The notes beneath the pieces were generated by a model. That model was given only the letters and a program-made list of their open reading frames with translations, was not told where the DNA came from and searched no databases. A program made the position numbers and the translations under genes. Source: Ectopseudomonas composti (GTDB lineage: Bacteria; Pseudomonadota; Gammaproteobacteria; Pseudomonadales; Pseudomonadaceae). Taken from it: a DNA stretch of 64,000 bases. Shown piece after piece: positions 10,005-41,613 of the stretch (position 1 is the first letter of the stretch; every line of letters begins with the position of its first letter). The stretch spans positions 62,001 to 126,000 of the forward strand of contig NZ_LSSW01000002.1 in NCBI RefSeq assembly GCF_001567565.1. The letters are read 5' to 3'.

Positions 10005-10031
10005 TGCAGGTCACCGTCCACAAACAACGGC

Positions 10032-10589
10032 CTATTTCAGACTTCCCTGGGGGGTGGGATCTGACGACGGATGTGCCATGCCGTCGTCGATTTCGATGGA
10101 CTGTTCGACCATCTGATGGATCAAACCGGCCCGTACATCAGGCAGATTGAGCAGCGAAGCCTTGCGGATTCTGGCCACTTCTTCCTCGGTATAGGGCTGG
10201 TAGTGCTCCGGCATGCTGGCACCCGCCATGCCGTTCTTGTCCAGCAACCAGTTGAGCAGGTCGGCCAACTGCGCATTGTTGAGCGCAGATTGCGACATGC
10301 CGGGTACGCGCACCAGGAACTCACGCCCGCCCTCGACCTTGAGGAAGTTGCCGACGAAACCCTTCATCTTCGGCGTGTCGTTGGCCTTGGAGCCGGTGCC
10401 ATCGCTGAGATGGCAACCGGCGCATTGCAGTTGATAGTTCACTGGCGTGCTGTAGCCCGCTTGTGAAATCGGCTTCTGCGGTGCTTCGTTACCTGGCGCG
10501 TGCTTCTGATTCGGATCCGGGATGGCACGTGCCATGGCCTGTGGAAGGACCATGGCAGAGGCCAGCGCAATGATCAGTGGCAAACGCAT
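10032..10589 (-). CDS. Periplasmic monohaem c-type cytochrome of the amine dehydrogenase operon
   Basis: A 185-residue secreted protein with a cleavable signal (residues 1-20, ...QAMA) and one haem-binding site, CAGCH, at residues 56-60. A later Met (in VPGMSQ) could be the sixth haem ligand. It is the last gene of the five-gene minus-strand operon aauB-aauE-aauD-aauA-cytochrome. The Alcaligenes faecalis aau cluster also has a small monohaem cytochrome gene right after aauA. Its likely role is to accept electrons, directly or through a copper protein, from the TTQ enzyme and pass them to the respiratory chain. Confidence 0.85.
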   Translation of the reverse strand: MRLPLIIALASAMVLPQAMARAIPDPNQKHAPGNEAPQKPISQAGYSTPVNYQLQCAGCHLSDGTGSKANDTPKMKGFVGNFLKVEGGREFLVRVPGMSQSALNNAQLADLLNWLLDKNGMAGASMPEHYQPYTEEEVARIRKASLLNLPDVRAGLIHQMVEQSIEIDDGMAHPSSDPTPQGSLK

Positions 10590-10604
10590 GGCAGTGCTCC
10601 TGGC

Positions 10605-11126
10605 TCAGATTGCCACGCCACGGATGATCGAGACCGTGCAGTGGTAAATGTGCGACTTGGCCGCGAGGCACCAGTTCACGTCGTTGTTGTTGAACGGTCG
10701 GTACAGCGGCTCTTCACTGTCGTTGCGGGTGCAGGCGCATTGGGCACAGCTGTGCTTACCGCAGCAGTCGTTGTAGGAAATGATGTAGTCCTTGCCGTCC
10801 GCCGGGTTGCGGCAGGTGCCGATCCAGGTCACCTGAGAAGCTTCGGTGCCCGGTGGGCAGGAGGTGACGGAGCCGCCGCAGCAGCTGCAGAGGAAACCGT
10901 CGATGGAGCAGTAGCGCCAGTAGTCGCAGCTATTGGGGTCGCCCGGATCACCGGCCTGCGGGTTTTCGGCGGCCAGGGCCTTGCTGGTGCGGTCGATGGG
11001 CAGCAGCACGGGCAGGGCGGCGCCGGCGACCATCATTGAGCCGAGGCGACCGAGGAAGTTACGCCGCGAGGTAGTATCGGCCACGTGGCGAGTGGAGCGT
11101 TCGAACAAGCGATCTAGCAATTTCAT
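10605..11126 (-). CDS. aauA: Amine dehydrogenase small (TTQ) subunit, probably aromatic amine dehydrogenase AauA
   Basis: A 173-residue catalytic subunit of the MauA/AauA family. The N-terminus has a twin-arginine signal (SRRNFLG, residues 20-26) followed by a hydrophobic stretch, so it is exported folded. Fourteen Cys residues lie in the mature part, in the family's disulphide-rich pattern (CDYWRYC, CSCCGG). The two Trp residues that form the tryptophan tryptophylquinone are W101 (VTWIGTC) and W152 (DVNWCLA). Their 51-residue spacing equals that of known methylamine and aromatic amine dehydrogenases. The catalytic Asp equivalents D76 and D120 are also present. The phenylacetate genes around it favour aromatic amines over methylamine. 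Start chosen at the conserved basic N-terminus before the Tat motif. Confidence 0.92.
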   Translation of the reverse strand: MKLLDRLFERSTRHVADTTSRRNFLGRLGSMMVAGAALPVLLPIDRTSKALAAENPQAGDPGDPNSCDYWRYCSIDGFLCSCCGGSVTSCPPGTEASQVTWIGTCRNPADGKDYIISYNDCCGKHSCAQCACTRNDSEEPLYRPFNNNDVNWCLAAKSHIYHCTVSIIRGVAI

Positions 11127-11142
11127 GTCAGGGCTCCCTGGC

Positions 11143-11754
11143 TCAGTGGTTGTGCGCGCCGTGGGCGTGCTGGCTGTTGTGCAGGTACTGCTGGAGGGTG
11201 GCGCTACCCAGGTGCTCGGTCTCGAACAGGCTGTCGAGGTGCTCGCGGGAGTTGACCAGGCCCTTGGCGCGCAGCACGCCGGCGTTATCGATCAGGGCGG
11301 CGTAGGGCAGCTTGCCGATCTGGTAGGTCATGCCCACTTCCGGGCCGACCACGTAGGTGGCGTCTTCGAGCTTGTGCTCGGCGATCAGCGCTTTTTGCGC
11401 GTCCATGTCACCGTCGCTGACGTAGATCACGTCGAGGCGATGGGCCTGTTCCTTGGCGATGGATTTGATCGACGGCAACAGCGACTTGCAGATCGGGCAG
11501 GTGGGCGAGAGGAAGAACAGCAACTGCGCTTTCTCGCCGGCGTAGCCGAAGTTCACCGGGCGACCAACGCGGTCGACGGCAGTCACTTGCGGGGCGGGCT
11601 CGTTGACGGCCACGCCCTTGTCGACCATCAGCGCGCCGGCGGGCGCCAGGCGACCATGCAGCACGCCGATCTGGCGTACCAGGCCCATGACGGCGAAGGC
11701 CAGAGCGATCAGCAGGCACCACAGCAGAATGTTAGAAACGATCAGAGCTTCCAT
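11143..11754 (-). CDS. aauD: Amine dehydrogenase maturation protein, thioredoxin-like (MauD/AauD)
   Basis: A 203-residue membrane-anchored thioredoxin-fold protein. One N-terminal membrane helix (about residues 5-27) is followed by a periplasmic domain with the redox motif CPIC at residues 86-89. In the mau and aau systems this protein is needed to form or isomerise the many disulphides of the small subunit. A His-rich C-terminal tail (HAHGAHNH) could bind metal. It sits 3 bases after aauE and 16 before aauA. Confidence 0.92.
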   Translation of the reverse strand: MEALIVSNILLWCLLIALAFAVMGLVRQIGVLHGRLAPAGALMVDKGVAVNEPAPQVTAVDRVGRPVNFGYAGEKAQLLFFLSPTCPICKSLLPSIKSIAKEQAHRLDVIYVSDGDMDAQKALIAEHKLEDATYVVGPEVGMTYQIGKLPYAALIDNAGVLRAKGLVNSREHLDSLFETEHLGSATLQQYLHNSQHAHGAHNH

Positions 11755-11757
11755 GAT

Positions 11758-12297
11758 TCACCTTCCGATGAGTTTGAGCAGACGGGGACCGTTGGCCAGC
11801 AGGCCTTCGGCGGTGACGTAGATGAGCAGGGCCACGGCACTGGCGGCGATGACGACGAAAGCGTCGAACAGTCCCAGGCTGCGGCTCAGTGGCGGCAGGC
11901 TCGCAACCAGCGCCAGACCTACCAGAACGGCATTGCGTGCCAGCAGCACCGGGCGGATTGGCTGAGCTTGCTCCGGGCCCGAGCAGCCGCAGTCGATATC
12001 GCGCCGGCCGCGCCACAGGTTGATGGCGATGGCCAGCGCGTAACTGGCCAGCAGTGCGGCGGCGCCGAGTGCCGCCAGGTGGCGAGTGGCCGGAACCAGC
12101 AGAGCGAAAGCCAGGGCGGCCTCGATCCAGGGCAGTGTCCGGGAAACCGGACGTACCAGGGTCGAGGGCAGCAACTGGTAATCCTCCAGCTGATTGGCGA
12201 AGCGGGCTGGCGCACGCAACTTGTGGGTCGCGGCGCTGGCCAGGATCACCGTCACGGTGAGCGCGGCGGTGATGATGAAGATCGGATCAGGTTGCAT
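11758..12297 (-). CDS. aauE: Amine dehydrogenase maturation membrane protein (MauE/AauE)
   Basis: A 179-residue integral membrane protein with about four or five predicted helices (for example FIITAALTVTVILASAATHK at the start). It belongs to the MauE/DoxX-like family that works with MauD in delivering and folding the TTQ subunit. A Cys pair in the loop DIDCGCSGPEQ could relay electrons to the AauD CPIC motif; this is inference. Gene order B-E-D-A is that of the characterised aau and mau clusters. Confidence 0.9.
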   Translation of the reverse strand: MQPDPIFIITAALTVTVILASAATHKLRAPARFANQLEDYQLLPSTLVRPVSRTLPWIEAALAFALLVPATRHLAALGAAALLASYALAIAINLWRGRRDIDCGCSGPEQAQPIRPVLLARNAVLVGLALVASLPPLSRSLGLFDAFVVIAASAVALLIYVTAEGLLANGPRLLKLIGR

Positions 12298-12306
12298 GGG
12301 GGCACC

Positions 12307-13464
12307 TCACCAGTGGCTGAGGATCTGAGTCGCGGTCTTTTGGATACCTTCCATGGTGCCGGTATGTTTGCCACTTTTCAGATCGAAGACTTCCAGGCCG
12401 CCGCTGATGTTGGTGCCGAGCAGCAGGGGCTTGTCGTCGTTGGTGGCGTTCAGGCTCCAGATCGGGTTAGGTGCCTCCAGTGTGCCGACACGTTTGTGCG
12501 TCTTGAGGTCGAAGGCCCAGATGACCGTGCTCGGGTCTTCCCATTTCATCGGCTCATGGGCGTCGTGCATCAACACGTAGAGACGATTGAGCTTGGGTGC
12601 CACGGTGATCAGTTGCCAGCCGCCCGGTGCCCAGCCAGCCTTCTTGTCGGCGGCGTCGGTCACCAGTTCCCAGGCTGGCAGAATCTTCGGCTTGTCGCCG
12701 GAGAAATCCACGCCGCGCACGGTGCCGGTGGTGCTGACGAAGTAGTAGGTGTCGCCTACCGCGTAGGCGCGTTCCACCAGCTTCTCGGCGTTGGGGTCGA
12801 AGAAGGCGGTATTGCTGCGGGCGATCTCCTTGCCTTCGTCGTTCAGTGTCACCACCTGCAGGTTGCCATCACCGCAGAGGGCGGCGAAGCGGCGCTTGCC
12901 GACCGGGTAGTTGAGTACGCAGCCGGGCATCGCGATCTCGCCCGCAACGACCTTGGCCTTGCTATCCACCACGGTCACCGAGGTGGACGGGGTGAAGTTG
13001 AAGACGTAGACGAAGCGGTCGTCGCTGCTGGTGCCCAGGGAATAGCGCTGGGTCAGAGCCTGGATGCGTTTGCTGGGAATCACCACTTCCCAGTCCGGGG
13101 ACAGGGTGCTGCTGTTCCAGGCGGTGAGCACGTCGGTGCGTGTGCCACGTGTGCCACGTGAATAGAACAAGTCGGCGGAGTACAGGTACTTGCCATCCCG
13201 ACTCAGGGTCGAGGGCGCGGCGAAGCCGGTGCTGACCATCCCGAGCATTTTCTTCTTGTCCGGATCGACGACAACCACACGACCGGTCACGAAGTTATCG
13301 AACTCGACATCGACGATATAGGCGCGATGAGGCTCGGGGGGGAAAGGGAGGGTGGTCTGTCCTATACCTGGGTCAGCCGGTAACTCGGCGTGGGCATTTC
13401 CCAGGCCGATGAGCGTGATGCTCAGTGCAAGCGAGGCGTGGGTGAGGATCCTGTTTATTCGCAT
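12307..13464 (-). CDS. aauB: Amine dehydrogenase large subunit (AauB/MauB), periplasmic beta-propeller
   Basis: A 385-residue protein: signal peptide (residues 1-26, ...GNAHA) then a seven-bladed YVTN-type beta-propeller. Conserved propeller motifs include KKMLGMVSTGF, DGKYLYSADLFYSRGTRG, FAALCGDG, YYFVSTTG and GWAPGGWQLI. Several match the aromatic amine dehydrogenase large subunit (LGMVPTAF, RGKRSDV, ICGDG, WVPGGYNL) better than I recall for methylamine dehydrogenase. It pairs with AauA as an alpha2beta2 periplasmic enzyme oxidising primary amines to aldehydes plus ammonia. It is the first gene of the operon. No mauF precedes it and no di-haem mauG is found anywhere in the window. Confidence 0.9.
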   Translation of the reverse strand: MRINRILTHASLALSITLIGLGNAHAELPADPGIGQTTLPFPPEPHRAYIVDVEFDNFVTGRVVVVDPDKKKMLGMVSTGFAAPSTLSRDGKYLYSADLFYSRGTRGTRTDVLTAWNSSTLSPDWEVVIPSKRIQALTQRYSLGTSSDDRFVYVFNFTPSTSVTVVDSKAKVVAGEIAMPGCVLNYPVGKRRFAALCGDGNLQVVTLNDEGKEIARSNTAFFDPNAEKLVERAYAVGDTYYFVSTTGTVRGVDFSGDKPKILPAWELVTDAADKKAGWAPGGWQLITVAPKLNRLYVLMHDAHEPMKWEDPSTVIWAFDLKTHKRVGTLEAPNPIWSLNATNDDKPLLLGTNISGGLEVFDLKSGKHTGTMEGIQKTATQILSHW

Positions 13465-13523
13465 AGGGGGGCTCCCTGATTTTTTGAATGGATCACGACG
13501 GCGAAGTGGGGCCGCTAGTTTTC

Positions 13524-13587
13524 AGTATGCTGCTGGCCCTCTTTTCGAGTTTTAGTGTCCGTGCCATTCACTTGCGCACTTGTGCCA
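13524..13587 (-). promoter_or_regulatory. Candidate FeaR-type activator site and promoter of aauBEDA
   Basis: Read toward aauB, the region is TGGCA-N16-TGGCA (complements of 13583-13587 and 13562-13566), then 32 bases, then the -10-like hexamer CATACT (13524-13529). The 21-bp repeat equals two helical turns, as for AraC-family direct-repeat operators. The proximal half lies 97 bases before the aauB start. Three other promoters in the island have the same arrangement. Confidence 0.65.
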
Positions 13588-13646
13588 AGACTCCAGCTCC
13601 AAGGCGCGCTCAGTCACCTGCCCAGGCCAGTGGGGCCTTACTGGCG

Positions 13647-13672
13647 CAACGGGGGCATTGCAGCCCCCGTTG
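13647..13672. terminator. Hairpin between the chemoreceptor gene and the aau promoter
   Basis: CAACGGGGGC, a six-base loop, then GCCCCCGTTG: a perfect 10-bp stem. It is followed on the plus strand by GTTTTCC and lies 50 bases past the end of the minus-strand chemoreceptor gene. It probably insulates the aau operon from read-through. Confidence 0.55.
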
Positions 13673-13721
13673 GTTTTCCGCCTGAAATCAGGATGTCAGT
13701 TTCCATCCATTCTAGTCGCGC

Positions 13722-15866
13722 TCAGGTGCGGAACTGTTGCATCAGTTCCTGCTGGTGGTTGGCCAGTTCGTTGAGTTGCTGACTGACATGAGCCGACTGC
13801 TCGGCCTGACCGGACAGGGACTCGGTGACGTTGCGGATCGCCTCGACATTGCGGTTGATTTCCTCGGCCACGCTGCTTTGTTCCTCGGCGGCGCTGGCGA
13901 TCTGCAGGTTCATCTCGGTAATGAGGTTGACGGCCTTGTCGATGCGCTCCAGCGCGGCCACGGCCTGTTGCACCTGGCTGACGTTGCGCTGCGCCTGGCC
14001 ATGGCTGGCTTGCATGCTCTGACTGACTTCATGGGTGCCGTTCTGCAGGTTTTCGATGACCTGGCGGATCTCTTCTACCGAGTCTTGCGTGCGTTTGGCC
14101 AGGTTGCGGACTTCATCGGCGACCACCGCGAAGCCGCGGCCGGCCTCACCGGCACGGGCTGCCTCGATGGCGGCGTTGAGGGCCAGCAGGTTGGTCTGCC
14201 CGGCGATCGAGAGAATCACCTCCAGCACCGAACCGATCTGTTCGCTGCTTTGCGCCAGGTTCTGCAGCTGCAGCATGCCCTCGCTCATTTCCCGGGCCTG
14301 GGCCTGAATCGCTTCGGTGGTCTGGATGATCACCCCCAGTCCTTCGCGGCTGGCCAGGTCGGCATTACGCGCCGCCTCGGCTGCCTGCGCCGCGCTCTGC
14401 GCCGAGGTGTTGGCTGTCGCGGACATCTCGTGCAGGGCGGTGGCGACCTGATCGATCTCGCGAAACTGTTGCTGCATGCCTTCGCTGGTCTGGTGCGCGA
14501 TCTGTGCCGATTGATCGGCGGTTTTGCGGGCGTCGCGCACCGAGCCTTGAACCTTGGCAATCACTGGCTGCAGCTTGTCCAGGAAGCGATTGAAGGCCAG
14601 GGCCAGCCGGCCGAGTTCATCGTTGCGCGCGTAGCTCAGACGGCGGGTCAGGTCGCCCTCACCGTCGGCGATGTCTTCCAGCATCCCTGCCAGGCGCAGC
14701 AGCGGGCGAGTGATCCCGCGTGCGGCCAGCCAGATGATCACCACACCCAGCAGCGCCGCGGCCAAGCCCAGGGCGAACTCCAGGATGGAGCGCTGCACCA
14801 GCTCCTGTTCCATGCGCACCTTCATGGCTTCGGCAGGCGCCTGAAGAACCTGCTCGGGGACTTCCAGCAGCACGCCCCAGGGCTTGCTGCCGGTCACCGG
14901 GATCAGAGGTTGAAGCACGCCGAGACGGCCATTCAGCGAGAGGGTCTGCGGTTGGTTCTTGGCCAGTGCGGAAAACACTTCGCTCGCCTGGTCTGGCAGT
15001 ACCTCCTGCAAGGTCTTTCCCAACTGTGCAGCATCCCGGCTATGGGCGGCCAGCAGGCCGGAGGGACTGATGATGCTGACCGATCCGTGGCCTTCGTACA
15101 ATTCGCTGCTGGCGGTCAGGGCGTCCTGCTGCAGGCTGTCGAGGCTGATGTCGAGGCCGATCACCGCCACGACCTTGCCGTTCTCCAAGAGCGGAAAGGC
15201 GATGCTGGTGACCAGTCTTCGGGTACCTGATGAGTCGTCGAAATAGGGCTCCAGCAGGCAGAGTTGGCCGCTATCTCGCGGGCATGTGAAGAACGCGTTG
15301 AACGGTGCGCCGCTCGGGCCGGGGGAGGTATCGGCCAGAAGCGACTCGTCGCCCATTATGGGCTGCAGCTCTCCGGGTTTGGCCTGCAGCCAGTAGAGGG
15401 CGAATCGCCCGGCATCGTTGCTGCCCAGATCGTTCTGCCCACGGAACTGGCCGTCCTGGCCATCGAGGGCGTCGGGCTGGAAGATGAGGAACAGGCCGAG
15501 CAGCTCCGGGCGCTGCTCCAGGGCCTTGCGCAGCTCGCTGGTCAGCCGGCTGCGCAGTTGCTCGGCGGGCATCTCGCCCTGTGCTGCCAGCTCGCGCAGG
15601 TACATCAGGTGCCGTGCCAGGCCCAGGCCGTATTCGTGAGTGCGAGTGAAGGTACGCTGGATGCGCAGCGCCTGTGCCTGACCCTGCGCCTGCAGGTTCA
15701 GGCGCGCGGCCTCGGCGAGCATCTCCGAGCTGGACTCCTTGACTCGTTCAGTGCTGGCGCGTGTCTCATAAAGAGACAAACCCACCAGCATGGCCACTAT
15801 CAGAATCAGGCAAAAGCTGACTAGCAGGGTGATCTTGCTTTGGATGCTCAAATTGGTTCCGGGCAT
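13722..15866 (-). CDS. Methyl-accepting chemotaxis protein with periplasmic double-CACHE-like sensor
   Basis: A 714-residue transmembrane chemoreceptor. A first membrane helix (about residues 9-31) and a second (about 361-382) enclose a periplasmic sensor of about 330 residues with double-CACHE features (for example [21 protein letters not shown]). Two Cys (195, 203) may form a disulphide there. A HAMP domain (about 384-436) and a full signalling domain with the conserved hairpin tip ([20 protein letters not shown], then [20 protein letters not shown]) follow. It lacks the RxWY amino-acid signature of PctA-type sensors as far as I can see. It lies 47 bases after a porin gene on the same strand, downstream of a FeaR-type promoter, so an aromatic amine or phenylacetate ligand is plausible but unproven. 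Confidence 0.92.
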
Positions 15867-15887
15867 TTTGGAGCGCTCCGCAAGAGC

Positions 15888-15907
15888 GCGGGGCGTCAGC
15901 GCCCCGC
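15888..15907 (-). other. Intercistronic GC hairpin between porin and chemoreceptor genes
   Basis: GCGGGGCG, four bases, CGCCCCGC: a perfect 8-bp stem in the 47-base gap between the porin stop and the chemoreceptor start. A second palindrome, GGAGCGCTCC, lies right before the chemoreceptor ATG and includes its only ribosome-site-like GGAG. Partial termination, 3'-end protection of the porin message or translational damping are possible. Confidence 0.45.
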
Positions 15908-15913
15908 ATACAG

Positions 15914-17239
15914 TCAGAATTGAGTGACGAACACCAGTTGGCTATAGAGGTTGCGGTTGTCGTTGCCGAGCTGGGTACCACCCTGGTTTGCCTGGCGGTC
16001 CGGTTGGTACAGGCCCACCACCGGCATCACGATCAGGTTGTCGCTGACGGCCCATTCCGCATAGAAATCTAGTTCACGTCCGTCGAAATTACCCAGGCTG
16101 CGGTCCAGGGTATTGAAGTCGAACCAGAGGGCGCCGATGCTGAGGTTCTCCAGCGGCGACACCTTGACGGCCACGTGATGGACCTGGGTATTGCTGTTGA
16201 ATGGCCCGGAGTAGTTGGCCGCGACTTCGCCCTGGAACCAGGTGCCATAGCCCCGGCTGAAACCGAAGAACAGCGGGTCGTAGCCTTCCGAGAAGCGGCT
16301 GTAGCGGTAGTTTACGCTGGGGCTCCAGGCCACGTCGGAAAAGGTCCAGCCGGCTTCCAGGTACCAGGCGTCTTCCTTGCCGCCGCTCTTCCTGTCCTGC
16401 CAGGCATATTCGCCGGAGAGGAACAGGTCTTTGACCCCTGCATTGCCCTGGCCGCGCACGCTGTAGGTCTTCATGCCGTCACGTCCAAGTTGCGCGGGCG
16501 AGGCGTACTGCTTGTCGATATCGCGAATATCGATCACGGTCAGGCCCAGGGTACCAGCGTCGGAAACATGCTCCAGGGTGCCCACCAGCATTTCCGGCTT
16601 GGCCTGGGCGCGGTTGTCCGACTTGAGCCACATCAGGTCGCCACGCAGGCCCTGGTTGCCGCCCAGGCGCAACACGGCGGTCTGGTCGAAGGCCTTGCGC
16701 GCCGCCAGCCAGTAGGCGCCGCCACGGTCGTACTCGCCATCGGCCAGGCCGTTGCCCAGGTTCAGGGCGTCGCCATTGATCAGGAACCCATCGCCGACGC
16801 GGACGTTCTGGCGGCCGAAAGACAGATCCACGCCGTCTTCGCCGAGGGCCTCGAAGAGGTTGCCCGAACGCCAGCCCAGGTAGGCGTCCTCGATCTTGGT
16901 GGTGCGCTCGGAGCCGTCGGTGAAACCGGCGGCATCACCGTCGCCCCAGGTGCCCGAACTCAGCAGGTTGAAGGCGCCGTAGCCGGTTCCCGAGCCGGCC
17001 AGGCCCTGGTCGAAGCTGATGCCGTACTTCACGTAGCCTTCACGCCAGGAGGACGAGCCCGCGTTCTTGCTGCCGCTGGTGGCGTAGTTTTCCCGGCTGT
17101 GGAACAGGCCGAAGGCGGCTTCGAGGTTGGCGTTCAGATGAGTGTCATCGTCCGCATATAGCTCGTAGGCGCTGGCTTGAGTCGCGGTGCCGATCAGAAG
17201 GGCGAGAGAGGAGAGTCGTAGTAGACGGGACGTGTGCAT
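15914..17239 (-). CDS. Outer-membrane porin, alginate-export-like barrel
   Basis: A 441-residue protein with a cleavable signal (residues 1-24, ...TQASA) and a barrel rich in aromatic beta strands, ending in QLVFVTQF with a terminal Phe, the signature of outer-membrane insertion. The pattern ([33 protein letters not shown]) matches the alginate-export porin superfamily, used by Pseudomonas for diverse anionic or aromatic substrates. It is the promoter-proximal gene of a porin-chemoreceptor pair with a FeaR-type promoter. It most likely admits the amine or its products. Substrate not determinable from sequence. Confidence 0.85.
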
Positions 17240-17290
17240 GGCGGCTTCCTTTTTTTCTTAGTATGAGTGGAGGTGTGTGGCTCTGACTCG

Positions 17291-17354
17291 ATACTAAGAC
17301 GTTGTGAAGAACCCACCTTGTGCGTCTTTGCCAAGGACTTGATCCTCTGTGCCA
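17291..17354 (-). promoter_or_regulatory. Candidate FeaR-type activator site and promoter of the porin-chemoreceptor pair
   Basis: Toward the porin gene: TGGCA (complement of 17350-17354), 16 bases, TGGCA (complement of 17329-17333), 32 bases, then TAGTAT (17291-17296) as -10 hexamer. The proximal half is 89 bases from the start codon. Geometry is identical to the aau promoter although the sequence between the boxes differs. Confidence 0.65.
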
Positions 17355-17422
17355 GATTAGCCTAGCAGGGCGTGGGTGAGAGCATGGCGAGCCTGCCCGA
17401 TTGAGGGGGCGGGCGATGCAGA

Positions 17423-17442
17423 AACCGGCCCGAGGGCCGGTT
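17423..17442 (-). terminator. Terminator of the paaA-to-paaZ operon
   Basis: AACCGGCCC, two bases, GGGCCGGTT: a 9-bp stem 21 bases past the paaZ stop. On the minus strand it is followed by TCTGC after the TT of the stem, so the U tract is short. Confidence 0.6.
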
Positions 17443-17463
17443 GTTCAGCGGTTGTAACCTGCG

Positions 17464-19524
17464 TTACTGCGCCTGTGGACGTTTCAGTACCAGGGTCAGG
17501 ATGTCGTAGCTGGCTACCAGTTCGCCGAGCTGGTTGCTGACTTCCACGTCCCAGGCCACCACGCCCTGAGGCTCGCCTTTGGGGCTCTTCTTGCCCTGGT
17601 CGATCTTGCGTTTGCAGGTCAGGCGCGCCTGGATGGTGTCGCCGATGCCCACCGGGTTGATGAAGCGCAGGGTGTCCAGGCCGTAGTTGGCCAGTACCGG
17701 GCCCGGTGCCGGGGAGACGAACAGGCCTGCGGCAGCGGAGAGCACGAAGTAGCCGTGGGCGATGCGTTTGCCGAACTGCGACTCCGTGGCTGCCAGCTCG
17801 TCGAAGTGCATATAGAAGTGATCGCCCGACAGGCAGCCGAAGTTGACGATGTCCGCTTCGGTGACGGTGCGGCGGTGCGTCAGCAGGGATTCGCCGATCT
17901 GCAGTTCGTCGAAGTAACGGCGGAACGGATGCACCTCGGTCTCGATCACCTGGGCACCGCGCACGTGCTCGCGGGTCACCGCGGCCAGCATGCTCGGCGA
18001 GCCCTGGATGGCGGTGCGTTGCAGGTAATGCTTCACCGCACGCACGCCGCCCAGCTCTTCGCCGCCGCCGGCCCGGCCCGGGCCGCCATGCTTGAGCACC
18101 GGCAACGGTGAGCCGTGGCCGGTGGATTCGGCAGCGGCTTCGCGGTCGAGGATGTGTACGCGGCCATGCAGGGCGGCCATCACTGGCACTGCACGGGCGG
18201 CGACGGCCGCATCCTTGGTGACCAGGCTGGCCACCAGGCTGCCCTTGCCGCGGGCGGCCAGGGCGATGGCTTCGTCCAGGTCGTCGTAGGCCATCAGGGT
18301 GCTGACCGGGCCGAAGGCCTCGATGTCGTGGGCACCGCCTTCGGCGTGCGGATCGCGTGCACGCAGCAGGGTGGGGGCGAAGAAGGCACCTTCGCTGACG
18401 CCCTCGCCACGGGGGGCGAAGCCGTCCTGGGCGCCGAACAGCAACTCGCTACCGGCCAACAGGGCTTGCAGGCGCTCGCCAACGTCAGCCTGCTGCGCGT
18501 GGGAGGCCAGCGCGCCCATCTTCACGCCCTCCACCGAGGGGTCGCCCACCACTACCTTGGCCAGGCGCTCACGCAGGCGCTCGGCCACGGCGTCGATGTG
18601 TTTCGCCGGGACGATGGCACGGCGGATGGCGGTGCACTTCTGCCCGGCCTTGACGGTCATCTCGCGGGCCACTTCCTTGACGAACAGGTCGAACTCCGCA
18701 TCGTCCGGGGTGACTTCCGGGGCGAGGATGGCGCAGTTCAGCGAGTCGGCCTCGGCGTTGAAGGGGATCGAGTTGCGCACCAGGTTGGCGTTGACCCGCA
18801 GCTTGGCGGCGGTGTCGGCGGAGCCGGTGAAGGTCACCACGTCCTGGCCTTGCAGGCGGTCCAGCAGGTCGCCGGTGCCGCCGATGATCAGTTGCAGGCT
18901 GCCTTCGGGCAGCAGGCCGGACTCGTGCATCAGGCGCACCGTGGCTTCGGTCAGGTAGCTGGTGGCGCTGGCCGGTTTGATGATGCAGGGCATGCCGGCG
19001 AGGAAGGTGGGGGCGAACTTTTCCAGCATCCCCCAGATGGGGAAGTTGAAGGCGTTGATGTGCACGGCCAGGCCGCCGCGCGGCACCAGGATGTGGCTGC
19101 CGGCGAACAGGTTCTTCTTGCCCAGGGGCATGACCGGGCCTTCGTGGACGATGTTGCCGGAGGGCAGCTCACGGGCGCCGACGCCGGCGTAGGCGAACAG
19201 GGTGCCGGTGCCGCCCTCGATGTCGATCCAGCTGTCGGCACGAGTGGCGCCGCTGTGCTGGGAAATGGCGTAGAGCTGTTCCTTGCGCTCGTTGAGGTAC
19301 AGCGCCAGGGCCTTGAGGCACGCGGCGCGCTGCTGGAAGTCCAGGGCCATGAGCGCCGGGATGCCGCGCGAGCGACCGAAGTCCAGGGCTTCGGCGAAGT
19401 CCAGCGCCTCTTCGTGGGTGTGGAACAGGGGCTGGCCGTTGACCGCACTGCGCAGTAGCTGGGCGCCGTGTTGGCCGATCCAGCGGCCACCGATGAAGCT
19501 TTGCAGGGTGGGGGCGTTGCTCAT
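17464..19524 (-). CDS. paaZ: PaaZ, bifunctional oxepin-CoA hydrolase / 3-oxo-5,6-dehydrosuberyl-CoA semialdehyde dehydrogenase
   Basis: A 686-residue two-domain enzyme. Residues 1 to about 520 are an aldehyde dehydrogenase domain with nucleophile Cys in KAGQKCTAIRRA and the family glutamate in FNAEADSLN. Residues about 530-686 are a MaoC-type hotdog hydratase with LSGDHFYMHFDE and HGYFVLSAAAGL. In phenylacetate breakdown the hydratase opens the seven-membered oxepin-CoA ring and the dehydrogenase oxidises the resulting semialdehyde. The start at 19524 has GGAG upstream; an in-frame ATG six codons earlier is less likely. It is the last gene of the large minus-strand paa block and ends before a hairpin. 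Confidence 0.95.
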   Translation of the reverse strand: MSNAPTLQSFIGGRWIGQHGAQLLRSAVNGQPLFHTHEEALDFAEALDFGRSRGIPALMALDFQQRAACLKALALYLNERKEQLYAISQHSGATRADSWIDIEGGTGTLFAYAGVGARELPSGNIVHEGPVMPLGKKNLFAGSHILVPRGGLAVHINAFNFPIWGMLEKFAPTFLAGMPCIIKPASATSYLTEATVRLMHESGLLPEGSLQLIIGGTGDLLDRLQGQDVVTFTGSADTAAKLRVNANLVRNSIPFNAEADSLNCAILAPEVTPDDAEFDLFVKEVAREMTVKAGQKCTAIRRAIVPAKHIDAVAERLRERLAKVVVGDPSVEGVKMGALASHAQQADVGERLQALLAGSELLFGAQDGFAPRGEGVSEGAFFAPTLLRARDPHAEGGAHDIEAFGPVSTLMAYDDLDEAIALAARGKGSLVASLVTKDAAVAARAVPVMAALHGRVHILDREAAAESTGHGSPLPVLKHGGPGRAGGGEELGGVRAVKHYLQRTAIQGSPSMLAAVTREHVRGAQVIETEVHPFRRYFDELQIGESLLTHRRTVTEADIVNFGCLSGDHFYMHFDELAATESQFGKRIAHGYFVLSAAAGLFVSPAPGPVLANYGLDTLRFINPVGIGDTIQARLTCKRKIDQGKKSPKGEPQGVVAWDVEVSNQLGELVASYDILTLVLKRPQAQ

Positions 19525-19582
19525 GGGAATTCTCCGTGACAAAGGCCAGCACCTGGGGTGCCGGCCGGGGTTCGTGGTTGGC

Positions 19583-20815
19583 CTACCAGAGGGCGAGGGT
19601 GTAGCCGAGGATCAGGCGGTTCTCGTCGAGGTCGGTGCTCAGGCCGTTGCCCGAGCGGAAGGTGACGTTGCGCCAGCGCAGGCTCAGGCCCTTGAGGGCA
19701 CCGCCCTGGATGACGTAGGCGAGGTCGCTGTCGCGTTCCCACTCTTCGCCGTGATCACCGCTGGCGGTCTTGGCGTTGCGGCCGTCGACGTAGCGGGTCA
19801 TGAAGCTCAGGCCCGGCAGGCCAACGGCGGCGAAGTCATAGTCGTAGCGCAGTTGCCAGGCGTCCTCCTCGGCGCGGGTGAAGGTGTTGTAGGTCACCAG
19901 GTTCACCACGTAAGGGTCGCCGCCGTTGAGGAAGGGAAAGGCGCTGCTGCCGGACATGCGCTGGAACGCGGCGCTGATGCGGTGCCCACCCTGGCTCAGG
20001 CTGAACATGGCGTTGAGGTTGCGGTTGTCGATGCGCCCGGCACGTGCGGCGCCGTCGCCACGGCTGTCGAAGTAGCGCAGGTCGCTCTTCAGGCTGAAGC
20101 CGCCGGGCAGCGGCAAGCTGTGCACCAGGCCGGCGAACTGCTGACGGTAGATGTCGTCGAGCTTGCCGTAGTAGTAGCTGACCGCCAGCTGCGGGCTGAT
20201 GGCGTAGGTGCCGCCGGCGAAATCGAAGGCATCGCTGCTGACGGCGCCGTAGCCGATGTCGTCACGGCCGGAGGAGTCGCGCAGGTTGACGCGGGTCAGG
20301 CGGCCGCCGTTGAGGGTCAGACCGTCGACCTCCTGGCTGGTCAGCATCCCGCCCTGGAAGGTGGAGGACAGCAGGCGGGTGTCGTTGTAGCTGACTACCG
20401 GTAGCTGCGGCTGCAAGGTGCCCAGGCGCAGCACGCTGTTGGCAGCGCGCAGCTTGGCGGTCAGCCCCAGTTCGCTGTAGTCGTCCACCGGCTGCTTGTC
20501 GGCGGGATCGAAGGGCAGCAGGCCGGTGCCACGGCGGTCGCGGCTGGAATCCAGCTTGACGCCCAACTGGCCGATGGCGTCGAGGCCGATACCGACGCTG
20601 CCTTCGGTGAAACCGGAACTGATCCGCGCGGTGAAGCCCTGGGCCCATTCTTCGGCCTTGGACTGGGCCGCGCCGTGCTGGCGGAAGTCGCGGTTGAGGT
20701 AGTGGTTGCGTAGCTCCAGGCTGGCCTTGCTGTCGTCGATGAAGCCGGCCAGGGCCGGCGTGGCCAGAGGTAGGGCCAGGGTGGCGAGTAGTGCGGTGGT
20801 GCGGTTGAGGTTCAT
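19583..20815 (-). CDS. OprD-family porin, probably phenylacetate-specific (PhaK/PaaM type)
   Basis: A 410-residue outer-membrane protein: signal peptide (...LATPALA), then FIDDSKASLELRNHYLNRDF, the typical start of mature OprD-family porins, then 18-strand barrel-like sequence ending RLILGYTLALW with an aromatic terminus. In Pseudomonas an OprD-type porin within the phenylacetate cluster (PhaK) supports phenylacetate entry. The ATG at 20815 is chosen because it begins a normal signal peptide. It lies between the permease and paaZ on the same strand. Confidence 0.9.
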   Translation of the reverse strand: MNLNRTTALLATLALPLATPALAGFIDDSKASLELRNHYLNRDFRQHGAAQSKAEEWAQGFTARISSGFTEGSVGIGLDAIGQLGVKLDSSRDRRGTGLLPFDPADKQPVDDYSELGLTAKLRAANSVLRLGTLQPQLPVVSYNDTRLLSSTFQGGMLTSQEVDGLTLNGGRLTRVNLRDSSGRDDIGYGAVSSDAFDFAGGTYAISPQLAVSYYYGKLDDIYRQQFAGLVHSLPLPGGFSLKSDLRYFDSRGDGAARAGRIDNRNLNAMFSLSQGGHRISAAFQRMSGSSAFPFLNGGDPYVVNLVTYNTFTRAEEDAWQLRYDYDFAAVGLPGLSFMTRYVDGRNAKTASGDHGEEWERDSDLAYVIQGGALKGLSLRWRNVTFRSGNGLSTDLDENRLILGYTLALW

Positions 20816-37161: not shown

Positions 37162-38082
37162 ATGACGATCTTACGAGCAGAAATAGCCGGCCGCTTCGAT
37201 GGCTGGCTGCATGACGTCAATCAAGTGTGCGGGCATTTCGATGCCCAATGCCTGGGTGAAGGATTCTCCGGCTCCATCCGTGAGCACCAGACGGGTGCGC
37301 TGAGATTGAGTTTCGTTGACATTACCCAGGCGCGCCTGTTTCGCTCGTCGAAGGAAATAGCGCAGAGTGACTGCAAGCATTTCTACCTGGTGTCCCAGTT
37401 GTCGGGGCGTGCAGGCATGGAGCAAGCGGGTAACTGCGTGGAAATGCAGCCAGGCGATATCACCCTGATCGACTCCAGCGTGCCGAACAATTTTCTCTAC
37501 GAGGATTCTTCGCGGCAGATCTCCCTGATCCTTCCGCGCCACCTGCTTGAGCAGAGTCGGCGCTTCACCGAAGTGCATTGCGCTCAGCGCATTCCCGCCA
37601 GCGCGCCGATGGCGGCAATGGCCAACCGCCTGATTCTCGAGTCGACCCAGCAGGGTGCGCTGAGCGTCAGCGAGAGCGAGGCGACCCTTGAGGCGCTGGT
37701 CAGCCTGTTGCGGCCCGTATTGTGTGCCAGCGACAGCGTTCCCGACGCCCACGAGCGGCTGTTCCGCAAGACGCTGCGTTTCATTGACGAACATATCTGC
37801 AGCGAGGAGCTCTGCCCGGAGGCCATCGCCCGGGAGGTGGGTGTTTCGATGCGGGGTCTGTATCGCATGTTCGCCAAGAAGGGCCTGGTCGTGGCGCAGT
37901 ACATCAAGAACCGGCGCTTGGACTTCTGCGCCGAGACGCTGCGTCAGGCCGGCAGCGAGCAGAAGCTCTCGGCTCTGGGCTACGAATGGGGTTTTACCGA
38001 CTCCAGCTACTTCTCCACGGCCTTCAAGGCGCGCTTCGGGGTATCCCCGAGCGATTACCGCAAGCGCTACAGCGGGCGCTAG
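37162..38082 (+). CDS. feaR: FeaR-like AraC-family activator of aromatic amine catabolism
   Basis: A 306-residue AraC/XylS-family regulator. The N-terminal cupin-like sensor includes MQPGDITLIDSSVPNNFLYE; the C-terminal double helix-turn-helix runs from about residue 205, with VGVSMRGLYRMFAKKGL and GFTDSSYFSTAFKARFGVSP. The overall pattern matches FeaR, the E. coli activator of the phenylethylamine oxidase and phenylacetaldehyde dehydrogenase genes. It lies between paaX and a cytochrome c gene. Four nearby promoters share a 21-bp TGGCA direct repeat that would suit a dimer of this protein. One lone TGGCA (37109-37113) lies in its own leader. Confidence 0.85.
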   Translation: MTILRAEIAGRFDGWLHDVNQVCGHFDAQCLGEGFSGSIREHQTGALRLSFVDITQARLFRSSKEIAQSDCKHFYLVSQLSGRAGMEQAGNCVEMQPGDITLIDSSVPNNFLYEDSSRQISLILPRHLLEQSRRFTEVHCAQRIPASAPMAAMANRLILESTQQGALSVSESEATLEALVSLLRPVLCASDSVPDAHERLFRKTLRFIDEHICSEELCPEAIAREVGVSMRGLYRMFAKKGLVVAQYIKNRRLDFCAETLRQAGSEQKLSALGYEWGFTDSSYFSTAFKARFGVSPSDYRKRYSGR

Positions 38083-38153: not shown

Positions 38154-38217
38154 TGGCAAGTTGGCAAAGGGGCCTGGCACAGGCAATAAAACCCCCTCGC
38201 TGCCGAGCGAGGACAAT
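38154..38217 (+). promoter_or_regulatory. Candidate FeaR-type activator site and promoter of the cytochrome c gene at 38292
   Basis: TGGCA (38154-38158), 16 bases, TGGCA (38175-38179), 32 bases, GACAAT (38212-38217) as -10-like hexamer. A third TGGCA at 38162-38166 lies between the boxes. The proximal box is 112 bases before the start codon. Orientation relative to the gene matches the other three sites. Confidence 0.65.
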
Positions 38218-38291: not shown

Positions 38292-38678
38292 TTGAAAACC
38301 CTAACCAAGCTGGCCGGCCTTGGCTGCCTGCTGCTGTCTGCGCCTGTGTTCGCGGCGCAATGCACCACTGCGCAGCAGCACAAGGGTGAGGCGCTGTTTA
38401 CCAGCGAATGCTCGGTGTGCCATTCGGTCGCCGTGGGCGGTGCCACCAAGATGGGGCCGAATCTCAAGGGCCTGTTTGGTCGAACCTCGGGGAGTCTGCC
38501 TGGTTTCAGCTATTCCCAGGCGATGAAGGCGAAGGCGGTCGAATGGCAGATGCAAAGCCTGGAGCAGTTCATCGCTTCACCTCAGGCATTCGTGGCCGGT
38601 ACCTACATGCCCTACATGGGCCTGGCGAATGCCGAGGATCGCCAGGCAGTGGCGTGCTTCCTGAGCACGCAGAAGTAA
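38292..38678 (+). CDS. Periplasmic class I cytochrome c
   Basis: A 128-residue protein: signal peptide (...SAPVFA), haem motif CSVCH, then KMGPNLKGLFGRTSG and TYMPYMGL, whose Met is the likely axial ligand, as in mitochondrial-type cytochrome c. It is monocistronic, preceded by a FeaR-type site and followed by a hairpin. In context it is probably a second electron carrier for amine oxidation. Confidence 0.88.
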   Translation: MKTLTKLAGLGCLLLSAPVFAAQCTTAQQHKGEALFTSECSVCHSVAVGGATKMGPNLKGLFGRTSGSLPGFSYSQAMKAKAVEWQMQSLEQFIASPQAFVAGTYMPYMGLANAEDRQAVACFLSTQK

Positions 38679-38789: not shown

Positions 38790-40277
38790 TCAGTAGCGAA
38801 TGAGCACCGACTTCAGCTCGGTATAGTCATCGATGAAGGCGCTGCCGAACTCGCGCCCCATGCCGGATGCCTTGATGCCGCCGAAGGGCACCGATGGGTC
38901 GAGGAAGGTGTGCATGTTGACGTAGACCGTGCCTGCCTCGATCTGCGGGATCAGGCGCAGCGCACGGGACAGGTCGTTGGTCCAGATGCTGGCGGTGAGG
39001 CCGAAGGGCGAGTCATTGATCAGTGCCGGCAGTTCATCCACTTCGTCGTAAGGCACTACGCAGAGAATCGGGCCGAAGGTTTCCTCGTGCAGGAAGCGAT
39101 CCTGCGGGCCGTTGGCCAGGAGCACGGTGGGTTCGACGTAGAAGCCCGAGCCCGCAAGCGGGTTGCCGCCACAGATGACCTGGTTGTCATGGCGGGCCGC
39201 GGCGAGAAATTGCGACACCTTGTCGAACTGCGGCTTGTTGGCCAGCGGGCCGAACTGCACGCTCTCGTCCAGTGGCGAGCCAATGCTCATGCCCTTCACC
39301 GCTGCGGCGAACTTGGCCAGGGTTTCATCGAGCTGCGAGCGGTGCACATAGATGCGCTCCGGCGAGGCGCAGACCTGGCCCTGGTGCACGTAGCCCGTCT
39401 GGATCAGGCCGGCCACGGCGGCATCGATATCCGCATCGGGCAAGAGTGCGGCGGCGTTCTTGCCGCCCAGCTCCAGGGTCACGCGGGTCAGGTTGGCGGC
39501 CATTGCGCTCTGACCGACCTTGAGGCCCGTTGGGACCGAGCCGGTGAACGAAACCTTGGCTACCTTGGGGTGTTCGATCAGCTGGGCACCGACTTCACCC
39601 GTACCGTTGACCACGTTCAGTACGCCTGCCGGTAAGCCTGCTTCTATGGCCAGTTCGGCCAGGCGCAGCAGGGTGATCGGGGTGAATTCGCTCGGCTTGA
39701 GGATCAGCGTGCAGCCGGTTGCTAGGGCTGCGCCGAGCTTCCAGATGGCGATCATTACCGAGAAATTCCAGGGCACGATGCCCGCGACCACGCCGACTGG
39801 CTCACGGCGCGTCATGGCGGTGTACTGCTCGCCGGCCATGGACGGGAACGACGGGGTCATGGTCTCGCCGCTGATCTTGGTCGCCCAGCCGGCGTAGTAG
39901 CGCAGGAAGATGGCGCTCTGGCCGACTTCGAACATGCGCGAGAGGTGGATGGATTTGCCCGAGCACAGGGTTTCCAGCTGCGCCAGTTCCTCGCCGTTGG
40001 CTTCCATCAGGTCGGCCAGGCGGTTGAGGACCACGCCGCGCTGATAAGGCGAAGTCTGTGCCCACTCGCCCTTGAAGCTGCGCCGGGCGGCCGCGACGGC
40101 CGACTCGACCTCGTCGGCGGTGGCGCAGGTGATCTGTGCGATCACTTCGCCGTTGGCCGGGTTGACGATGGGAACGTGCCGGCTGGAGGTGCCCGCGCGG
40201 TACTGGCCGTCGATGAAGTGGCCGTGATCGCGTTGCAGGTATTGGCGTACTTTGGGCAGTAACTGAATTTCGCTCAT
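38790..40277 (-). CDS. feaB: Phenylacetaldehyde dehydrogenase
   Basis: A 495-residue NAD-dependent aldehyde dehydrogenase. Catalytic residues are E269 (TLELGGKNAA) and C303 (HQGQVCASPERI); the cofactor region is GIVPWNFSVMIAIWKLG. Length and motifs match phenylacetaldehyde dehydrogenases (FeaB, PadA, StyD). It converts the aldehyde made by the amine dehydrogenase to phenylacetate, the substrate of PaaK. The start at 40277 has AGGAG at a normal distance. The upstream gene on the same strand, a PotF-like binding protein, is 142 bases away; they probably share the FeaR-type promoter. Confidence 0.88.
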   Translation of the reverse strand: MSEIQLLPKVRQYLQRDHGHFIDGQYRAGTSSRHVPIVNPANGEVIAQITCATADEVESAVAAARRSFKGEWAQTSPYQRGVVLNRLADLMEANGEELAQLETLCSGKSIHLSRMFEVGQSAIFLRYYAGWATKISGETMTPSFPSMAGEQYTAMTRREPVGVVAGIVPWNFSVMIAIWKLGAALATGCTLILKPSEFTPITLLRLAELAIEAGLPAGVLNVVNGTGEVGAQLIEHPKVAKVSFTGSVPTGLKVGQSAMAANLTRVTLELGGKNAAALLPDADIDAAVAGLIQTGYVHQGQVCASPERIYVHRSQLDETLAKFAAAVKGMSIGSPLDESVQFGPLANKPQFDKVSQFLAAARHDNQVICGGNPLAGSGFYVEPTVLLANGPQDRFLHEETFGPILCVVPYDEVDELPALINDSPFGLTASIWTNDLSRALRLIPQIEAGTVYVNMHTFLDPSVPFGGIKASGMGREFGSAFIDDYTELKSVLIRY

Positions 40278-40368
40278 GGGGTCTCCTGAGGGGCTTGAGT
40301 GGCCCGAGCTTGTTGGTATTGGCGGGGCCTCGTAGGGGAATTTGCTGCTTTGTCGCTGTGCTGCTTGC

Positions 40369-40388
40369 CGCGCCCTATCCAGGGCGCG
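40369..40388 (-). other. Hairpin between the PotF-like gene and the dehydrogenase gene
   Basis: CGCGCCCT, four bases, AGGGCGCG: a perfect 8-bp stem 31 bases after the PotF-like stop, with no U tract. It may partly separate expression of the two genes. No FeaR-type double site is seen between 40278 and 40419. Confidence 0.4.
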
Positions 40389-40419
40389 CATGCCGAGAGC
40401 GCCTCAATCGCCTGGGGCT

Positions 40420-41481
40420 TCAATAGCGGTTCCTCTTCAGGTCCTGCCAGGCTTCATCGAGGATCTTGCGTTGTGAGGTGGGCACGCTCTCGAGCAGATA
40501 ACTGCGTCGTCTTTGATCGGTCGTCAGCACCTGTGCCGGGTGCGCTTTTGCGAAGCTCTGCATGGCTGGCGTCTCGTTAGGCAGCGGTGCATAGAAACGA
40601 GAGTTGAGCGCGTTGCGCAGTGCGATTGGCGGGTCGATCAGGAAATCGAGCAGGCGGTAGGCCAGTTGCGGGTTGGCGGCATCGCTCGGGATCGCCAGGG
40701 TATCGATGAAGATCGCCGCGCCTTCTTCCGGAATGCGGTAGACGAGCTTCGGATTGTCCTGCATCGCACGCACGGCATGGCCGCTCCAGGCCATGGCCAG
40801 ACACAGCTTGCCGTTTATGAGGTCGTCGACGAAGTCCCAGTTGTTCATCGTGCGAATGAACGGCGTGACGGCCTTCAATCCGTCCAGTTGCTTGATCAAC
40901 TGGCGGTTGGTGATACGCGACAGGCGCCGCCCGCGGTAGTTGAGCAGCACTGATGAGGTCTCATCGGAAGCGTCCAGCATCGCTACGCCGCATGTGCTGA
41001 GCCGTTCTGTTTCGGCGGCCTCGAACATCAGCTTCCAGCTGTTGGGCGGGGGAGCGCCGTAGCTGGCTTGCGCCAGGTCTGGGGCGATTACCAGCCCGGT
41101 GGAGCCCCATAGATAGGGCACCGCGTAACGGTTGGCCTGTGGCAGGCCGGCGAGAATCGTCAGCAGCCAGGGGTCGAGTTCGGCGTAGTGCGTCAGCTGC
41201 CCGGTATCCAACGGCGTCAGCCGCTGCTCCTCGATCAGTTGTTCGAGCATGAAATGGCTCGGCATCACCAGGTCATAGTGCGAGCCATCACTGAGCGCCT
41301 GGCGCAACTCGTCGGTGCTGGTATAGGTCTGGTAATCGACGGTAATACCGGTTTGCTGCTGAAAATCTCTGAGCACGTCAGGGGCCAGGTAGTCCTTCCA
41401 CCCGTACACGCGCACTACCTGTTCGGCATGCGCCTGAGCGATGGTTGCCAGCAGAGCGAGCAAGGCAAGCAGTACTTTCAT
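40420..41481 (-). CDS. PotF/SpuD-like periplasmic polyamine-type binding protein (orphan)
   Basis: A 353-residue exported solute-binding protein: signal peptide (...AQAHA), then VVRVYGWKDYLAPDVLRDFQ, the hallmark start of the PotD/PotF family, and later NYRGRRLSRI and WSGHAVRAMQDNPKLVYRIP. Family members bind putrescine, spermidine or related amines. No ABC permease or ATPase genes are adjacent. It is preceded by a FeaR-type promoter and followed by phenylacetaldehyde dehydrogenase. It may bind an aromatic amine for uptake or for presentation to the chemoreceptor; this is inference. Confidence 0.85.
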   Translation of the reverse strand: MKVLLALLALLATIAQAHAEQVVRVYGWKDYLAPDVLRDFQQQTGITVDYQTYTSTDELRQALSDGSHYDLVMPSHFMLEQLIEEQRLTPLDTGQLTHYAELDPWLLTILAGLPQANRYAVPYLWGSTGLVIAPDLAQASYGAPPPNSWKLMFEAAETERLSTCGVAMLDASDETSSVLLNYRGRRLSRITNRQLIKQLDGLKAVTPFIRTMNNWDFVDDLINGKLCLAMAWSGHAVRAMQDNPKLVYRIPEEGAAIFIDTLAIPSDAANPQLAYRLLDFLIDPPIALRNALNSRFYAPLPNETPAMQSFAKAHPAQVLTTDQRRRSYLLESVPTSQRKILDEAWQDLKRNRY

Positions 41482-41549: not shown

Positions 41550-41613
41550 ATTTAAGCCAGATCGGCCCGCTGGAGTTTGCTTCTGGGTGCCAAGTTCTGG
41601 TGTCGGTGTGCCA
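41550..41613 (-). promoter_or_regulatory. Candidate FeaR-type activator site and promoter of the PotF-like / feaB pair
   Basis: Toward the gene: TGGCA (complement of 41609-41613), 16 bases, TGGCA (complement of 41588-41592), 32 bases, TTAAAT (41550-41555) as -10-like hexamer. The proximal box is 106 bases before the start codon. The rest of 41482-41840 shows no gene. Confidence 0.65.

Follow-up and report, generated by a model that had tools for sequence, protein, structure and literature searches.

A porin and a TlpQ-type chemoreceptor with an altered pocket residue probably belong to a FeaR-type aromatic amine regulon in Ectopseudomonas composti

Introduction

Ligands are unknown for most chemoreceptors, and chemoreceptors linked to metabolism are known in pseudomonads, as is the pea pathway of P. 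putida U. A chemoreceptor gene of Ectopseudomonas composti, encoded 47 bp behind a porin gene and next to an amine dehydrogenase operon, raises the question of whether movement toward, entry of and oxidation of one compound are controlled together, and of which compound the receptor senses. The window analysed here is a 64,000-nucleotide stretch of contig NZ_LSSW01000002.1 (positions 62,001 to 126,000, assembly GCF_001567565.1), part of a 5.27-Mb genome in 34 contigs. On its minus strand the order is the phenylacetate (paa) cluster ending in paaZ, the porin, the chemoreceptor and the amine dehydrogenase operon. The evidence below indicates that porin and receptor are probably transcribed as one unit within a FeaR regulon for aromatic amines, and that the receptor has probably been retuned to aromatic monoamines. 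The features on which this reading rests are as follows.

15914..17239, minus strand: outer-membrane beta-barrel protein (porin), 441 aa; open reading frame with a predicted AlgE-like barrel, leading the putative two-gene unit
13722..15866, minus strand: methyl-accepting chemoreceptor, 714 aa; dCache sensor, HAMP and signalling domain
14787..15773, minus strand: TlpQ/McpU-type sensor domain of the receptor, residues 32-360, TlpQ numbering; I170 where TlpQ has E170
15867..15913, minus strand: porin-receptor spacer, 47 bp; G+C-rich hairpin, no T-run
17318..17354, minus strand: FeaR-type box of the porin-receptor unit; strict pattern, 78 bp before the porin start
13551..13587, minus strand: FeaR-type box of the amine dehydrogenase operon; strict pattern
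38154..38190, plus strand: FeaR-type box ahead of a small cytochrome c gene; strict pattern
41577..41613, minus strand: FeaR-type box ahead of the genes for a solute-binding protein and a FeaB-like aldehyde dehydrogenase; strict pattern
37162..38082, plus strand: FeaR, AraC-family regulator, 306 aa; NCBIfam NF007243 370 bits, cut-off 199

Results and discussion

A FeaR-type box shared by the porin and the amine dehydrogenase operon

The porin and chemoreceptor genes are both complete and share a strand, and both the porin and the amine dehydrogenase operon are preceded by the same direct repeat of 21 bp, TGGCA-N16-TGGCA-N8-(A/C)AA, confirming the gene arrangement and the promoter likeness proposed by the first-pass annotation. 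The strict form of the repeat has 5 matches genome-wide and 0 in the reversed control, while the loose form TGGCA-N16-TGGCA has 29 and 15, respectively, so that specificity lies only in the strict form. Four of the strict boxes are in the window and the fifth is on another contig (C29), flanked by a second porin and a second amine dehydrogenase operon and next to a second FeaR-family gene; all five are thus confined to two amine-oxidation loci. Within the window, the two further boxes stand at the small cytochrome c gene, which together with its box follows the FeaR gene, and at the solute-binding-protein/aldehyde-dehydrogenase pair. The window regulator passes the FeaR equivalog model. In E. 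coli, the same repeat is present at -130 of tynA, and feaB carries a TGTCA version with N8-AAA after both half-sites; the FeaR consensus was reportedly given in 2013 as TGNCA-N8-AAA. Since the same repeat occurs at E. coli tynA and FeaR is encoded in the window, the repeat is in all likelihood the FeaR box. Joint control of movement, entry and oxidation, as first suggested, is thereby supported at the sequence level: the porin-receptor unit and the dehydrogenase operon share the box, and its putative regulator is encoded nearby.

The locus resembles the E. coli FeaR regulon (feaR, feaB and tynA) in its regulator (49% identity to E. coli FeaR), its FeaB-like aldehyde dehydrogenase (48%), the tynA-type repeat and the adjoining paaZ. 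It differs in having an aau-type dehydrogenase where E. coli has a copper amine oxidase, and in the addition of a porin, a receptor, a cytochrome c and a binding protein.

Co-transcription of porin and receptor is suggested by their common strand, the 47-bp gap and the lack of any terminator-like site on the minus strand in a scan of 10000-19600. The first 45 nt of the spacer contain a hairpin, different in letters from one relative to another, whose stability is reached by no more than 3% of mononucleotide shuffles both in the window and in 18/29 relatives; against dinucleotide shuffles the window hairpin is moderately unusual (z -1.95, 9/200). It may act as a partial terminator, and is likely a means to yield more porin than receptor from one message. 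With the start candidate furthest from the porin taken in each case, the porin-receptor gap is 45-79 bp in 19/29 relatives.

The porin is predicted to be a beta-barrel at moderate confidence (mean pLDDT 66.5), and the solved structures nearest to this model are those of AlgE (Foldseek E 1.5e-9, TM 0.54-0.58, 12% identity). No Pfam or NCBIfam model matched the porin at E 0.001, and its score against Alginate_exp (E 0.042, 13.1 bits) is below the cut-off of 25.2.

An amine-receptor fold with a changed pocket residue

Transmembrane stretches of the receptor lie near residues 5-37 and 359-390. It has HAMP and MCP signalling domains, and its sensor scores 35 bits with dCache_1 (below the cut-off of 45) and 29.6 bits with MCP-like_PDC_1 (above 27). 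The closest sequences of known structure are TlpQ (6FU4, phmmer E 9.7e-96; and 9KP3, on which no paper was found in a search of the open-licence literature) and McpU (6F9G, E 2.3e-74). A structure model of residues 32-360 (pLDDT 90.4) superposes on TlpQ with Z 40.2 and rmsd 1.6 over a gapless 297 residues (17-313 of the model with 48-344 of TlpQ), so that residue numbers coincide, and on McpU with Z 35.3. The double-CACHE-like character assigned earlier is upheld. A motif search of the sensor domain found no match to RxWY, as had been noticed; this sets the sensor apart from the dCache_1AA (amino-acid) type, which was ruled out, and implies nothing more. The accompanying suggestion of a new ligand class was rejected, because in sequence as well as in structure the sensor is closely related to TlpQ and McpU, members of the biogenic-amine family; the structure prediction and motif search that had been proposed as a check gave a known amine-receptor fold with the amine triad kept. 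The sensor thus appears to be a known fold with a changed specificity residue.

The accessible part of PMC6234866 describes TlpQ and McpU as receptors for histamine and polyamines, with TlpQ affinities of 0.06-1.7 uM. Histamine in the TlpQ pocket has its primary amine bound by Y208, D210 and D239 and its imidazole nitrogens by D210 and E170; Y158 holds a water molecule. Phenylethylamine and tyramine are bound by TlpQ at 410 uM and 100 uM, respectively, according to the accessible part of PMC10653921. The window receptor shares with TlpQ (PA2654, Pseudomonas aeruginosa) the same fold, 52% identity in a gapless alignment, the intact primary-amine triad Y208/D210/D239, and Y158. In contrast, it has Ile instead of the acidic E170, Leu for A160, Gly for M172 and Phe for W192, and it belongs to a separate clade that is coupled to the porin and FeaR boxes. 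The model places positions 158 and 160 on the same strand and 170 on the following one. The absence of E170 indicates a sister clade in the same superfamily, not a TlpQ orthologue. McpU (PP_1228, Pseudomonas putida KT2440), of the same family and 43-47% identical in structure alignments, also differs in having Glu at the 170 position, and the genome's own TlpQ-like paralogue (L104, contig C15) has Glu at 170.

In 32 receptors linked to this gene context, Y158, D210 and D239 are present in 32/32 and Y208 in 31/32 (one Phe), with position 170 being Val in 31 and Ile in 1; in 10 unlinked relatives, position 170 is Glu (8), Gly (1) or Met (1). The two groups also differ at 160 (Val/Leu/Ile vs Ser/Ala), 172 (Gly vs Met/Leu) and 192 (Phe vs Trp). 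A further receptor, from locus L075, has Val170 and was kept out of the 32 because no box is present there. In a tree of 49 sensors, one branch (support 98/98, length 0.6) splits off the 36 with a hydrophobic residue 170; L037 (41% identity), with a Leu near 170 beside an alignment gap, was placed with the outgroup. Loss of the acid at 170, together with more hydrophobic neighbours, is what would be expected if the ligand had one amine and an aromatic tail.

Other receptors are less close. PctD, of the dCache_1AM type (PctD, PacA, McpX), is about 23% identical; at the motif positions given in the accessible part of PMC10104139, R103, D133, F188, S217 and D235 correspond to R105, D135, F192, S221 and D239, whereas W155, Y189 and M215 are replaced by Tyr158, Phe193 and Val219, that is, 5/8 identical and 3 conservative in a by-eye reading of the pairwise alignment. 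PA4915 of P. aeruginosa is likewise a pseudomonad phenylethylamine receptor (KD 58 uM) but has a 4HB domain, an unrelated sensor type (accessible part of PMC10653921). The P. putida 1290 receptor for indole-3-acetate, PcpI, was set aside as a relative, its sensor being described as a 'small unknown' and not dCache_1 in the accessible part of PMC9543091.

Conservation in Pseudomonas

The named relatives found are all Pseudomonas (P. sp. BN411, P. sp. JM0905a, P. resinovorans, P. citri and P. taiwanensis). Their receptors are 70-76% identical to that of the window, and paaZ is followed by the receptor in 5/5, with the porin in between and the box ahead of it in 4/5. In none of the five does the dehydrogenase operon lie within 10 kb downstream of the receptor; FeaR is encoded elsewhere in 5/5 of these genomes and aauB elsewhere in 4/5, and a box also lies near FeaR in 4/5.

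To place these loci within the genus, 298 genomes were surveyed, 248 of which encode some TlpQ-type sensor at E 1e-60; 40 regions were read, a part of the TlpQ-type matches. In 29 of 33 relative loci (L032-L036, L067-L094), a porin 71-84% identical to that of the window precedes the receptor gene. Of these 29 porins, 26 are preceded by the strict box, which ends 73-82 bp from the start codon; the other three have no box (L075) or the loose form (L080 and L081). Where the porin is absent, in L067, the box is directly before the receptor gene. In 596.5 kb, 63 strict boxes were counted, of which 26 precede the porin, 20 a cytochrome c gene, 1 an aldehyde dehydrogenase gene, 1 the receptor and 15 other positions. 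Where an open frame follows one of these 15, it encodes an ethanolamine-permease-type permease (336 of 382 bits) or an aldehyde dehydrogenase, and in the truncated loci L084 and L094 no frame is readable after the box. The ethanolamine-permease-like genes are an apparent further branch of the FeaR regulon. In fluorescens-type loci (e.g. L080:11438-15189), the box is followed by the ethanolamine-permease-like gene and then by genes for a class-III aminotransferase and an APH-type kinase.

Receptor, regulator and porin also occur together. The receptor genomes comprise the window's own and 27 others among the best-scoring matches listed for the 298 genomes. With the receptor genomes taken from these listed matches, FeaR (E 1e-60) is present in 27/28 receptor genomes and in 21/270 others (Fisher p 3e-24); for a porin with 66% identity or more, the counts are 27/28 and 15/270 (Fisher p 2e-26). 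The 28 do not include three genomes whose V/I170 receptors lie in other surroundings (G015, G278 and G121); among the three, FeaR reaches E 1e-60 in G278 alone, which gives 28/31 when all three are included, and G121 has a diverged FeaR-family protein above the NCBIfam cut-off. The sole receptor genome without FeaR among the matches listed, G136, is the one whose locus (L075) has no box before the porin.

In one genome (G202), the DNA matches the window at 98-99% over 17421-43750, FeaR included, and at 91% over 7731-9508, whereas 6.3 kb of other DNA (L115:5982-12276) takes the place of 9508-17421, a segment that comprises precisely the porin, receptor and dehydrogenase operon. The replacement encodes a Phenol_MetA_deg outer-membrane protein, a long frame resembling outer-membrane receptors, and a PQQ alcohol-dehydrogenase-family protein (TIGR03075 664 bits, cut-off 480) whose gene has a FeaR-type box of its own. 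Judged from these alignments, this is an exchange of oxidation cassettes at one putatively FeaR-controlled place, suggesting that oxidation, receptor and porin functions come and go as one block. The gene layout, the boxes, the regulator and sensor families, the residue changes and their conservation can all be read directly from the sequences.

Proposed function and alternative explanations

Co-transcription, FeaR binding here, its inducer, the substrates of the dehydrogenase and the porin, and the receptor ligand are what we infer from these data. FeaR, which responds to aldehyde products, would be switched on while aromatic amines are metabolised and would bind paired TGGCA-N8-(A/C)AA half-sites 21 bp apart. 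It would activate the porin, for amine passage across the outer membrane, together with the chemoreceptor; it would also activate the periplasmic tryptophylquinone-type amine dehydrogenase with its cytochrome, and the FeaB-like aldehyde dehydrogenase, the resulting phenylacetate entering the neighbouring paa pathway. The receptor, keeping the primary-amine site Y208/D210/D239 and having lost E170 for Ile/Val, would favour ligands with one amine and a hydrophobic aromatic tail, namely phenylethylamine, tyramine and perhaps tryptamine. Phenylethylamine or tyramine is made more likely by the change of E170 to Ile, and phenylacetate less likely by the retention of the amine-binding residues.

An ordinary TlpQ/McpU-type receptor for polyamines and histamine, co-expressed by happenstance or within a FeaR regulon that serves polyamines too, would account for TlpQ and McpU as the nearest solved relatives, for the kept triad and for the FeaR box at the PotF-like binding protein. 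It is nevertheless unlikely, as Ile/Val170 is found in 33/33 clade members linked to porin, paaZ or boxes (the 32 and L075), the genome has a separate E170 paralogue, and the PotF match is far below its cut-off (193 of 636 bits). The adjoining paa cluster, the iac-like genes near three relatives and the hydrophobic turn at positions 170 and 160 would suit a receptor for a pathway product or another aromatic compound (phenylacetate, 4-hydroxyphenylacetate, an aldehyde or indole-3-acetate) in place of an amine; we regard this as improbable, given that D210 and D239, which hold the amino group in TlpQ, are invariant in the counted clade members and would repel a carboxylate. It would be similarly surprising if porin and receptor were expressed apart, with the spacer hairpin ending or splitting the message and the receptor under its own control. 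The stability of the hairpin in the window and 18/29 relatives and the longer spacers elsewhere speak for such a split, whereas the window hairpin has no T-run and is just z -1.95 with dinucleotide shuffles, no terminator-like site was found on that strand, the lone receptor of L067 carries its own box, and such hairpins may simply set porin above receptor. A chance origin of the neighbourhood and promoter likeness, for which the frequency of the loose repeat (29 vs 15) might be cited, is hardly conceivable in view of the strict counts (5 vs 0), the conserved place of the box before the porin in 26/29 relatives and the co-occurrence with FeaR, and was rejected.

Several observations weigh against a FeaR-controlled pair devoted to aromatic monoamines. 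TlpQ binds phenylethylamine and tyramine weakly even with E170, so this residue does not forbid them. The single origin of the 36 receptors means that the many sequences are not independent evidence: loss of E170 and association with amine genes amount to roughly one event. Kinship is disregarded in the Fisher tests. FeaR occurs without the receptor in 21 genomes and the porin (at least 66% identity) without it in 15 among the matches listed. P. citri (L035) lacks both porin and box, and in L075 the porin-receptor pair is present with neither box nor FeaR, so that its control must differ there. The porin-receptor gap is 100-264 bp in 10/29 relatives, and no sigma-70-like promoter was found on the minus strand in the scan of 10000-19600. 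In addition, three V/I170 receptors beside iac-like genes would also fit an indole-acid ligand. These clade receptors (in L092, L099 and L100; Val in two and Ile in one at position 170) lie near genes that we take to be for indole-3-acetate catabolism; a family search confirmed a Rieske oxygenase in L099, and L100 also encodes a porin of 48% identity, an aldehyde dehydrogenase and a regulator of the FeaR family. For these three receptors the ligand that suggests itself is tryptamine, with indole-3-acetate as a possible alternative.

With these points taken into account, one transcription unit of the FeaR regulon containing a retuned receptor is still the probable explanation. Whether the whole clade lacking an acidic residue 170 consists of dedicated high-affinity aromatic-monoamine sensors, carried in porin and amine dehydrogenase cassettes and made only when FeaR reports amine use, is an even call. 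If so, phenylethylamine/tyramine sensors would be found beside paa genes and tryptamine sensors beside iac-like genes, and pseudomonads would gain the taste for a plant, food or gut amine along with the means of its uptake and oxidation. The regulatory box, the gene company and the pocket residue offer three independent lines to one ligand class, and a single residue (170) should switch polyamine sensing to aromatic-monoamine sensing. The FeaR regulon, catabolic in E. coli, would then in pseudomonads also cover outer-membrane entry and behaviour. Among the papers that searches of the open-licence literature listed, none has a title or opening lines of an abstract that describe a receptor-porin-amine-dehydrogenase regulon or a FeaR-controlled Pseudomonas chemoreceptor; subscription papers are mostly outside this body of text, which leaves their absence unproven.

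Neighbouring genes and the second amine-oxidation locus

The other genes of the proposed regulon in the window and the adjoining paaZ are listed below.

12307..13464, minus strand: amine dehydrogenase heavy chain (aauB-type); Pfam Me-amine-dh_H 161 bits
11758..12297, minus strand: MauE-like maturation protein; domain search
11143..11754, minus strand: MauD-like maturation protein; TIGR02661 208 bits, above the cut-off of 188.6
10605..11126, minus strand: amine dehydrogenase light chain; Pfam Me-amine-dh_L 175 bits, TIGR02659 179 bits, below the cut-off of 196.85
10032..10589, minus strand: probable cytochrome c, final gene of the dehydrogenase operon; weak Cytochrom_C match, 19.4 bits, below the cut-off of 21.3
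38292..38678, plus strand: small cytochrome c, TTG start; Cytochrom_C 40 bits, box upstream
38790..40391, minus strand: FeaB-like aldehyde dehydrogenase; 48% identity to E. coli FeaB across 495 aa, true start probably near 40279
40420..41481, minus strand: PotF-like periplasmic solute-binding protein; SBP_bac_8 77 bits, PotF 193 bits, below the cut-off of 636
17464..19542, minus strand: paaZ, edge of the phenylacetate cluster directly upstream of the porin; TIGR02278 975 bits, cut-off 562.8

According to the family models, the dehydrogenase operon, named aauBEDA here as the indole-3-acetate genes are named iac, has the make-up of a tryptophylquinone amine dehydrogenase, with heavy and light chains and MauE and MauD partners. 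The heavy chain scores 170 bits against the methylamine dehydrogenase equivalog TIGR02658, far below the cut-off of 454, which agrees with an aromatic-amine enzyme without being proof of one. This shortfall and the FeaR, FeaB and paa surroundings point indirectly to aromatic amines as the substrate. At 40420-41613, the boxed PotF-like gene precedes the FeaB-like aldehyde dehydrogenase gene, and no ABC permease gene was noticed alongside.

The second amine-oxidation locus on C29 (L113:10000-19741 and L114) comprises the second amine dehydrogenase operon and porin, the FeaR-family gene, and genes for an aldehyde dehydrogenase, a binding protein and a MarR protein; iac-like genes lie further along, and there is no chemoreceptor in the stretch covered. 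The mauD-like genes of the two dehydrogenase operons (window 11195-11795 vs L113) are identical in DNA over about 600-700 bp, reflecting either gene conversion or an assembly artefact, and the rest of the two operons is about 70-98% identical in 100-bp steps.

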